Assembly (NCBI GenBank): GCA_003254925.1
Contig: QANZ01033928.1
Coordinates: forward strand, 62,001 to 126,000
DNA: 64,000 bases
Reading direction: 5' to 3'
Origin: Chamaecrista fasciculata
Taxonomy: Eukaryota; Streptophyta; Magnoliopsida; Fabales; Fabaceae
Shown: in pieces, positions 1,279 to 8,283 of the stretch
Layout: the number at the start of each line of letters is the position of its first letter
Numbering within the stretch: position 1 is the first letter of the stretch
Notes under the pieces: generated by a model
Databases searched by the model: none
The model's input: only the letters and a program-made list of their open reading frames with translations
Told to the model about the DNA's origin: nothing
Program-made: the position numbers and the translations under genes

Positions 1279-3661
1279 TCACAATTCATCCTTCAGGGGC
1301 GCTTGAAAACATTGCTCATCCCATAGGAAAGGAAATATCAATTTTGCTGCAGTGTGAGGCATGAACCAGTCCTCATATACAAACCTACACAAGAGCCAAA
1401 AGACTCTTCAGTCTCCATTCGCAATGAGAAAGAGAAAACAATTAAAAAGGAGAAGTAGAAAACATGGAAAGAAAGTAAGAAACAAAGGTATCCACATCAA
1501 AACCCCATGACTCAGAAAGTTATATCATCTATAGTGACTGAGAGAGAAAAAAAACCGAAGATTTCACATAGTTAAGACAACAAATCCCTTAAGCTGTGGT
1601 GTACTTCCCAGCGCCACTAACAACAGCCAGTGGCATGAACACCATTTCACTTTTTCATTTAGTACTCGCACTTACCCTGTAAAAGGTCACCGGGAAACCA
1701 CTCTTGCAATTAGAATATCAACCGCCAAATCTAGACAGAGCAAGATATGCCCTCCAGACACGCGCTAGGTCACTATCATCACGTGTCTGTCATTGTTACA
1801 TACATACCTTGTACCCGCTACAGTAAACCACCTTTTCTCCAGTATATGTATCAGAATTCAAACCCTGGCAAAGGTAATGCGTATTCTTCCTTTCATCAAC
1901 ACTATCTCAAAAAAGTTTAACTGACTTAACAGAGAAGATTCACAGAGAGCCATCCGTGTACATCTTTTTTGCAGGAACTCTTTTGCATTCAACCATCATT
2001 CAAGCTCCCAGTAAGGAAACTCAAGGTAAGACTCTATGAGCCTACTTTCGTGTTTTCACAGAAATGTAATGTTTCATACGATTGTTGATACTCCTCATTC
2101 CAAGCCATTCGTTGGTCAAATTTTGAATTAACTATGATTGTAAATGATAAATCATGCAAACAGCTAGGCATATATTAACTTAAAAGGTCAAATAAAAGGA
2201 ATGGAAGAGAATGGAGAATAAAGGTCACGTACAATTTAACTGGTGGACGAGATATGATAACAAGCACTTGTAAGTCCTCATGTTCATTGGTATTCCATAA
2301 CTGCAATGAAGATTTTTAATAACTTCAAAATATTAAAAAAGTAGTAGAATTTCTGCTGACATCTTTCACCCCAAAAAAAAATGTGTGCTTCTCTTTTTGT
2401 TATAATCATCAGCTAGCAACAAAAAGAGCAAAAGGCTTGATTATTGTGCTTAAAGCCTTAAACACAGCACAAGGTGTCTCCTGAAACTAAACTATTGCAG
2501 TGAAGGAGTTTCATAACTGAATCATAAGAAATTGGAAACATTCTAACACAAAGTAAACATAATTGAGCTGAAAAATTCTTCTTGTACTATATCAAATGTT
2601 TACCTGATGAGCATCATTAACCGGAATATGAAATGTGCTATTTGGAAATATAAAATGCTCCTGTGGCTTTCCTGGGTTTGTTTCATGTGAACCTGATGCC
2701 AGAAAGAGAGTGCCACTCCCTTTGAGGACAATAAAAACTTCTTCACAGGAATGCCTATGTATTGGTGTGTAGGATCTTGGTGCAAATGTTTGAAGCCATA
2801 CCTCAATCTGCTTAAAACCAGATAATTTTTAAAAGTAAATGACATATAACACAGGAAAGCACAGATAGAAGTTATCGAGCAAACAGAGAGCAGCCAAACA
2901 TTTTTCAACATCATAATTTAAATTGAATATTTTTAAATTGACTATGAACAAAATGATTATATTATCTACAAATTTTTGGTTCCTGATAAGCCAAGATCTC
3001 AATAGCCACCTCACATGAGGTAGATAATTACTTGATATATACTGATCCTCATCAGATTTCCCTAAATATTCTACTTAAGCCTTCTTATATAAAGGCTCAC
3101 AGGTCATCTATATCAACACAATATTCATTATTTTTATTTCCTATCTCTAATTTTCGCTCCTGGTAGCTCTGACCCTGTATTATTTTGCAGGCACACAGTT
3201 GAAGAGACCTCTTGATAAATTCAAGATTCATCACTTCCAATAAACGAAAGACATCAGGTATCATAAACGCACTGCTTGTCTTCCATTAATTCTTTTCTTA
3301 ACATTTGCTAAAGAAAACATTGAAATACTTTATGTTAAATACCTCTCTCATTCCATGCAAGATTGAACCTACAACAGTCATGTGAGAGAGACCACCAATT
3401 CCATAGCTGTCCTGAGGAGTCTCACTTACATTCCGTACTAAGGGTAACCCTGCATATTTGCATATTAAAAAACAAAAACAAAAAAAACGGAGGAAGGGAA
3501 AATACTGTAAAAAGCGGAGGATAAAACCCGGGAAGTATAATTAATAAAAACAAGAAGAAAGTAGTATGCATATCTAAACCTGTAATGGAGCATTGAGAAG
3601 CAATAGCGACTGAAGAAAATGTTAAGAAGCAAAGGAAGAGAGTGAAACAACACCCAAGCAT
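1279..3661 (-). CDS. ABP1: Auxin-binding protein 1, tandem copy A
   Basis: ABP1 is an ER-resident and apoplastic cupin that binds auxin through a metal site. Five coding exons: 3661-3580, 3449-3343, 2807-2604, 2300-2233, 1384-1279, all GT-AG, joining to 188 residues, the usual ABP1 size. Seen in the protein: a hydrophobic signal peptide (about 1-21), the cupin metal motif HRHSCEE (80-86), the distal histidine in NDAHQ (H130), an N-glycosylation sequon NST (119-121), and a C-terminal KDEL retention signal. Near the C-terminus it reads [12 protein letters not shown] where copy B and the family read [12 protein letters not shown], so this copy has drifted in a conserved stretch. The start is the first ATG before the signal peptide. 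It is the downstream member of a same-strand tandem pair. ABP1 identity is very likely; whether copy A is functional is unknown. Confidence 0.93.
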
Positions 3662-3740
3662 CTTCCAAGTTCTAAGTTCTAACCAATTCTGCTGATTGGG
3701 TGAAATGTTCTATCAACCACATTTTTGAAGGCTAGGGCAT

Positions 3741-5373: not shown

Positions 5374-8283
5374 TCACAATTCATCCTTCGGAGGTGCTTG
5401 AAAACATTGCTCATCCCAGTAGTAAGGAAATTTCAATTTTGCTGCAGTATGAGGCATGAACCAGTCCTCATATACAAACCTACACAAGAGCCAAAACACT
5501 CTTCAGTCTTCACTCGCAATGAGAGAGAAAACAAGAAAAACAAGTAGCAAACATGGAAAGAAACAAAGATATCTGCATCACAACCCCATGACTCGAAGGA
5601 AGTTATACCATCTACCCAAAAAAAGAGTTAAATTTACCGCCACCCTTTGACGTATAATAGTTCAGACGGTTCCATCAATATAACAGGGAAAATACTAGCA
5701 GACTGCTTCATGATATTTTAAGGGCACTAAAAGAAATTTAGAATGTAGCGTTTATAAACATAGACATTTTTTTACTTGCCAATAGAAGGGTAAACAGATA
5801 ATGAAAAGAACATGAATCCATGCTGCTTTGGTTTAACTATATCCTTGTTCTTGCCTACGTAAATAGGAGAGAGGAAGGCTGCAAGCAACCCAATGCCTTG
5901 ATCTTAACGTGATTTCCTTGAAATTCTACTAAGAAACTTTGCGATAAGGACACAAAAGCAATATTAGAATCTATACGCACTTCTCAGAATATGACTACAG
6001 AGCTTCAGCAGTATACTTTCATATTTTGAAGAGCTATGACAGATTTCTCCATATTACTACGTAACTAAGAAGCACATTTTGCAATGACAGAAATGAAATG
6101 TGACTAATGATACTCCTCATTCCAAGCCAAACCTTGGTCAAATTTTGAATCAGCGAAATCAAACAGCTAGGCAAATATTAACTTAAAAGGTAAAATGAAA
6201 AGCATAAAAGAGAAAGGAGAACAGAGATCACGTACACTTTAATTGGTGGACGAGATATGATAACAAGCACTTGTAAATCCTCATGTTCATTGGTATTCCA
6301 TAACTGCAATGCAGATTTTTAATAACTTAAAAATATGAAAAAAAAAATATTGTCGAATCTGTTAACATATTTCACCCCAAGAAAAAAAAAAATGTGTGCT
6401 TCTCTTTTTGTTAAGAATATCAGCAAGCAACATAAAGAACAAAAGGCTTCATTGTTTTTTATACCTAAAGCCTTAAACACATCACAAGGTGTCACCTGAA
6501 ACTAATCTATTACAGTGAAGGAGTTTCATAACTCAATCATAAGAAATTGGAAATATTCTAAAACAAAGTTGAGGTGAAAAGGTATTGCTGTACTTTGTCA
6601 AATTTTTTACCTGATGAGCATCATTAACAGGAATATGAAATGTGCTATTTGGAAAAATAAAATGCTCCTGCGGCTTTCCCGGGTTTCTTTCATGTGAACC
6701 TGATGCAAGAAAGAGAGTGCCACTTCCTTTGAGGACAATAAAAACTTCTTCACAGGAATGCCTGTGTATTGGTGTGTGGGATCTGGGTGCAAATGTTTGA
6801 AGCCATACCTCAATCTGCTTAAAACCAGATGATATTGAAAAGTAAATGACATATAACAGACAAAAACATAGATTAAACTCATCGAGCAAACAGAGAGCTG
6901 CCAAACATGTTTATTTATCATGATTTAAATTGATTATGAATAAAATGATTATATTATCTACAAATTTTTCGATCCAATAAACAAAAGACATCAGGGATCA
7001 CAAATGCACAGCCGGTCCTCCAGTTAATTCCTTTCTTCAATTGGCTAAAGAAAACATTGAATTACTTTATGTTAAATACCTCTCTCATTCCATTCAAGAG
7101 TGAACCCATAATAGTTATGTGAGAGAGACCTGCCCTTCCATAGTTGTCCTGAGGAAGCTCACTGATATTTCTTACCAGGGGCAACCCTGCATATTAGGAA
7201 AACAAAAAAGAATTATACATTGTGCAATTAAGCATTTGACAGAAGAAATCCATCAGCAAAGAGCCAGTCCCCTTTAAAAACATGAAAGTCCGCAACAGTG
7301 TAAGCTTCTGGTAGTTCCCATAATTGGTCCCACACTATCACATTTGACATATTATTTTGTTCAAAATTAAAAAATGAGAAGCATAAAAATGCCAACGTCC
7401 TGATGTATAAAAGAAGGTTATACACTGCTGGGCACACGATAGTACCAAATTATTTCTCAAGTTTTGAGTACTGAGGTACTCCCTCAACTAGCATCAGGAC
7501 TAGCCTAGAGCAAACACTGTTTTATGTCACCACGTACGTACATCATGTCATGACACCATTGTGACTGGCCTATTAGGTGATAATACCTCATGAATCAAGC
7601 ACCATTTAATATCTTGATCATTGTCCAATGAGAGACAACGGTATACGGTAAAAAGTTCATGACTATAAGTGTAGCATATAAGGGTGACAAAATAAAGGAA
7701 AATAAGTATAAAATACTTTCCGATCAAAGCAGAACTTTGCGTCCGTTGTATAACAAAGTAACAAAACAACAATTAATCGCACTATTTACACTTTCTCGTG
7801 ATCTTTTTTTCGGCCGAAGCCTAGTAGCAGTAAGGGGGTAAACGGTCATTTATTTATCATTAATTGATTGCCTGAGAATCAAATACCCAGTCATAATGGT
7901 TGAAGTACAAAAGAATCAGTCATAGATCAAATGTTTTTTTGCCTAAATAACAAACATAAATTACTAATGAAACATTTCGATTAAGGTAAAGACCAATCGT
8001 CGGACGCATACAACGCGAAGGATGAGCAACTGTTAAGAAGCAACGATCTGAATAAATTACGATAGTTGCAGAAAGAAGCATTCAAGTTGGAGAAAAATTA
8101 ACTTTCAAGCTTATTGAAAATACTGTAAAAAGCGGAGGACAGAACTCGGGAAGTAATAATGAATAAAAACAAGAGGAGGGAAGTAGCATGAATATCTAAA
8201 CCTGTGATGGCGCATTGAGAAGCTAGAGCGACTGCAGAAAATGCTAAGAAGCAGAGGAAGAAAGTGAAAGAATACCCCAGCAT
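5374..8283 (-). CDS. ABP1: Auxin-binding protein 1, tandem copy B
   Basis: Five coding exons: 8283-8202, 7186-7080, 6814-6611, 6303-6236, 5479-5374, giving 188 residues with the same intron phases as copy A. It has a signal peptide (about 1-21), the cupin metal motif HRHSCEE (80-86), H130 in NDAHQ, a glycosylation site NST (119-121), and a C-terminal KDEL. The C-terminal [12 protein letters not shown] agrees with the family, unlike copy A. In the exon 2 region it reads [17 protein letters not shown] where the family usually has GLSHMTVAGSVLHGMKE, so the two copies have drifted in different places. Auxin binding at apoplastic pH and action with TMK-type kinases is known for the family. This is the better candidate for the ancestral function by C-terminal conservation; both copies look intact. 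Confidence 0.94.

Follow-up and report, generated by a model that had tools for sequence, protein, structure and literature searches.

The 64-kb window analysed here, the whole 64,000-nucleotide stretch of Chamaecrista fasciculata DNA, carries two ABP1 genes in tandem on the minus strand near its start, referred to as copies A and B (Table 1). Gene models were assembled on the reverse complement, with GT/AG borders as splice points, and the pair runs from 1279, the last base of copy A's stop codon, to 8283, the first base of copy B's ATG, coordinates that an earlier note on this DNA had given for two intact same-strand copies and that proved exact to the base. Exon lengths are identical in the two genes (82, 107, 204, 68 and 106 nt, or 567 nt in total including the stop), every intron starts with GT and ends with AG, and intron phases are the same, so that both spliced models reproduce the five exons, shared phases and 567-bp coding length that the note had described. 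Of the 567 coding sites, 53 differ between A and B, and of the 188 residues of the predicted proteins 24 differ and 164 (87%) are identical. Each protein begins with a putative signal peptide, recognised by eye from a hydrophobic run at residues 6-21 and an AxA-like site after it, and ends with KDEL directly before a TGA stop. The cupin metal ligands H80, H82, E86 and H130, as well as W175, are found in both copies, in agreement with the note as to ligands and KDEL; the glycosylation that it had also mentioned is kept in A and B alike, but as two sequons per protein (N34 and N119) and not as a single site.

Table 1. Coordinates of the ABP1 pair and associated features, as positions in the window
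Feature	Position	Strand	Details	Basis
ABP1 copy A	1279..3661	-	exons 3580-3661, 3343-3449, 2604-2807, 2233-2300, 1279-1384	spliced 567-nt frame, GT/AG borders, Auxin_BP E=2.1e-91
ABP1 copy B	5374..8283	-	exons 8202-8283, 7080-7186, 6611-6814, 6236-6303, 5374-5479	spliced 567-nt frame, GT/AG borders, Auxin_BP E=1.3e-94
Duplicated unit, A side	808..3769	-	alignable 808-920, 1240-1531, 2058-2983, 3236-3475, 3498-3769	blastn between units
Duplicated unit, B side	5134..8370	-	alignable 5134-5261, 5335-5614, 6087-6975, 6973-7212, 8116-8370	blastn between units
Copy-A-only insertion, intron 2	2984..3235	.	possible solo LTR: TG...CA ends (by eye), TATAAA inside; without counterpart in B	
Copy-B-only stretch of about 0.9 kb, intron 1	7213..8115	.	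without counterpart in A	
hAT-like non-autonomous element between the genes	4373..4842	.	ends TAGGGGTGTCAAAA / TTTTGACATCCCTA, target duplication CTCCAAAC	read from sequence
Proximal upstream of copy A, common to B	3662..3769	-	CACGTG box at 3741	aligned, 13% divergence; motif scan
Proximal upstream of copy B, common to A	8284..8370	-	CACGTG box at 8342	aligned, 13% divergence; motif scan

The identity of both predicted proteins as ABP1 is clear, a chance match being excluded. The Pfam Auxin_BP profile (PF02041) is covered fully by each of them (positions 1-167 of 167), with E values of 1e-94 for copy B and 2e-91 for copy A and scores of 305-315 bits against a cut-off of 21, and the sole match of either protein among solved structures is maize ABP1 (1LR5/1LRH) at E about 1e-70 (9e-71 and 6e-71 for the two copies with 1LR5). 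The cupin match to the maize protein extends over almost the whole chain. The maize zinc ligands H57, H59, E63 and H106 align with H80, H82, E86 and H130 of A and B, and equivalents of maize Q46, T54, L25, F65 and W151, together with the cysteines, are present in both. Outside this core, maize ABP1 is separated from the pair by many replacements. Over the aligned part as a whole its identity with copy B is 67%, and that with copy A is similar.

Potato StABP1 resembles the two genes in having five exons, a signal peptide, a single Auxin_BP domain and KDEL, but the doubled monoploid DM has one ABP1 locus in place of the tandem pair seen here (PMC10380454). Arabidopsis ABP1, of the same family, is likewise a single gene, unlike the present pair; it sits head-to-head with BSM, and the genome contains no hidden second copy (PMC4642851). 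Both cases, like PMC10015382, agree with the view expressed in the earlier note that ABP1 is single-copy in most eudicots. No mTERF/BSM-like long reading frame was seen beside either copy within the window from position 1, and a search of viral and prokaryotic genome contigs, where contaminant plant sequences might have supplied outgroups, returned no ABP1 relatives. Several ABP1 genes occur in maize and in some polyploids, and extra copies as such are therefore not unprecedented; no report of tandem ABP1 genes was found in the literature searched, which took in few subscription journals.

Elsewhere in the 64-kb window there is no third ABP1 copy or fragment, and ABP1 is the sole tandemly duplicated gene recognised. 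The plus strand carries a PIEZO mechanosensitive channel homologue at about 24789-33713, with Piezo1-like helical unit and Piezo cap domains and with exons upstream of 24.8 kb that are probably part of it, a RING-finger gene with a PIR2-like helical domain at 40414-43360, and a GH3-family gene (acyl-acid amido synthetase) at 45537-46851, about 40 kb from the ABP1 pair. The GH3 family includes auxin-conjugating enzymes. A tandem minisatellite at 58117-58500, with repeats such as LQGFASKASPPRLR, gives long minus-strand open frames and is probably no gene. Two inverted repeats were noted, one at 11120-11264 and 11494-11638 with 145-nt arms that are 91% complementary and spaced by 229 nt, and a larger one at 34807-36028, in which 34807-35277 and 35525-36028 show 83% identity over about 510 nt. 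An assembly gap of 344 N occupies 14275-14618.

Alignment of the two ABP1 units by blastn gives five blocks. These contain every exon, most introns, a portion of the 3' flank and no less than about 110 bp of upstream sequence, beyond which weaker similarity seems, by eye, to continue as far as about 3890 (A) and 8457 (B). Non-coding divergence between the copies amounts to 12.2% over 1183 aligned sites (K2P 0.133) and is homogeneous across the upstream, intron and downstream parts (p=0.99), and the aligned non-coding DNA carries 28 indels. Furthermore, each copy has private stretches: intron 2 of A contains one of about 250 bp and intron 1 of B one of about 900 bp, the middles of intron 4 are unrelated, and the repeats outside the genes are also copy-specific. 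The hAT-like element between the genes has imperfect 14-bp terminal inverted repeats and an 8-bp target duplication, and a palindromic (self-complementary) MITE-like repeat lies 3' of copy A at 1002-1234, with a related piece at 54549-54624. At commonly used plant substitution rates of 2e-9 to 6.5e-9 per site per year, the 12.2% divergence would place the duplication very roughly 10-35 million years ago. Because the duplication included the proximal upstream region and a CACGTG box is kept in both copies, at most about 80 bp from the ATG and inside the conserved stretch, expression of both copies is plausible.

Divergence between the coding regions is not uniform. Selection was estimated with a purpose-written pairwise codon model, the two-omega version of which has one synonymous rate throughout and separate omegas on either side of the exon 2/3 border. 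Whole-gene omega for A against B is 0.31, with 1 rejected (p=1.7e-4), a pairwise and not a per-copy value, for which a figure below 1 is also expected if just one copy has been constrained most of the time. The neutral rates that the earlier note had thought telling against retention are thus not those of the gene as a whole; for exons 1-2 alone, with an omega of 0.73, the rate is not distinguishable from neutral (p=0.34 against 1), and exons 3-5 are strongly constrained, with an omega of 0.14. Two omegas are preferred to one at p=3.7e-5, a somewhat optimistic figure because the split was chosen after seeing the per-exon counts. By part, the copies differ by 18.7% in exon 2, 4.9% in exon 3 and 4-5% over exons 3-4, set against the 12.2% of non-coding DNA. 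This concentration of differences in exon 2 goes beyond that in the comparison with maize, with only nominal significance (Fisher p about 0.02); in the latter, exon 2 exceeds exons 3-5 in variability only slightly, and saturation towards maize could flatten the comparison. With maize as lone outgroup, copy A matches at five of the 17 differing aligned positions, copy B at four and neither at eight, and on this reckoning neither copy stands out.

Gene conversion was rejected as the reason why exons 3-4 diverge so little, as introns 2-4 diverge like the other non-coding stretches. Since non-coding divergence is constant along the unit, the differences among exons do not result from gene conversion of the 3' half.

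The N-terminal arm is of relevance to auxin binding because the N- and C-terminal extensions of the barrel line the auxin cavity (PMC10610038). The residues of maize ABP1 that lie no more than 6 angstroms from NAA have been listed (PMC4265171), and 18 pocket positions were used here, with the 'L24' of that work taken as L25, the residue mutated there and the one that fits the chain numbering. Copies A and B are the same at 15 of these positions and differ at three, corresponding to maize I22 (Ile in A, Arg in B), I130 (Leu in A, Val in B) and F149 (Phe in A, Tyr in B), so that at I22 and F149 copy A is like maize and copy B is not. Three of 18 is no enrichment relative to the rest of the protein (p=0.43), and the pocket differences are therefore a lead and not a result. 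Potato StABP1 has Tyr at the position of F149, as does copy B (PMC10380454); on the strength of this one species, the Tyr of copy B is probably the eudicot state and the Phe of copy A derived.

Taken together, the gene models and the pattern of divergence suggest that both copies probably encode a functional ER/apoplastic ABP1 and are retained duplicates in which the N-terminal arm has partly diverged. An ancestral ABP1 locus would have been duplicated in tandem, together with some of the 3' flank and no less than about 110 bp ahead of the ATG, and A and B would both still encode secreted, ER-retained cupin auxin-binding proteins with a metal site. The barrel core and C-terminus (exons 3-5) would be held by selection in both, and the N-terminal arm (exons 1-2), which partly folds over the auxin pocket, may have diverged freely or adaptively. 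We infer that both genes are expressed, that the zinc site of each protein binds auxin, and that labour may be divided between them, with A and B acting as dosage partners or as partly specialised forms of a single ABP1; by analogy with Arabidopsis, they would act in the ER and, with TMK-type kinases, in the apoplast.

Several other accounts of the pair must be weighed. The record is gapped by the 344-base run of N, as might suit an assembly artefact in which a pair of haplotypes, or a repeat that had been collapsed and expanded, were set side by side. Such an origin is nevertheless highly improbable, as 12% substitution divergence exceeds ordinary allelic divergence, the aligned non-coding DNA has 28 indels, large insertions are private to each copy, and the flanks beyond the duplicated unit differ on each side. 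Because the 12% non-coding divergence is uniform and insertions are copy-specific, the arrangement is ascribed to an old tandem duplication rather than to an assembly or allelic artefact, and the concern of the earlier note that one copy might be an assembly duplication is countered by these same features of the assembled sequence alone.

The main rival to retained duplicates is the slow decay of one copy, an intact but dying gene in which constraint was recently lost and in which the selection signal would come mostly from the other copy. This would accommodate a rate in exons 1-2 that cannot be told from neutral and a divergence in exon 2 no lower than that of non-coding DNA, but it is an unlikely account of frames, splice sites, metal ligands and KDEL that all remain intact in A and B despite 12% neutral divergence, of exons 3-4 that differ so little, and of an omega in exons 3-5 that lies below expectation if one copy had long been free. 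Alternatively, positive selection on the N-terminal arm may have driven the two copies apart adaptively, so that A and B would differ in their specificity for auxin or for partners. The omega of exons 1-2 and the I22/R22 difference in the arm, with F149/Y149 also differing, point in this direction, but that omega is not above 1, and adaptive divergence is more doubtful than decay. A specialised receptor pair, in which copy A (with the maize-like I22 and F149) and copy B (R22 and Y149) would have come to differ, through the arm over the pocket, in their affinity for auxin, their pH dependence or their kinase partner, is a tentative proposal and, like the decay of one copy, an unlikely one; if true, it would constitute a natural two-allele experiment on the role of ABP1.

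Retention of both genes is thus the preferred reading, and what lies at this locus is two real, intact ABP1 paralogues in tandem, jointly constrained on the pairwise estimate, members of a known family with an interesting pattern of regional divergence. If the copies are redundant, they would be an ordinary local duplicate. As an old, intact and constrained tandem pair they are a counter-example to the usual description of ABP1 as single-copy, and they offer a means of asking where in this long-disputed protein selection acts, with the metal site and C-terminus held and the N-terminal arm free. If both copies are expressed and their ligand responses differ, the pair would set auxin binding apart from the other roles of ABP1.
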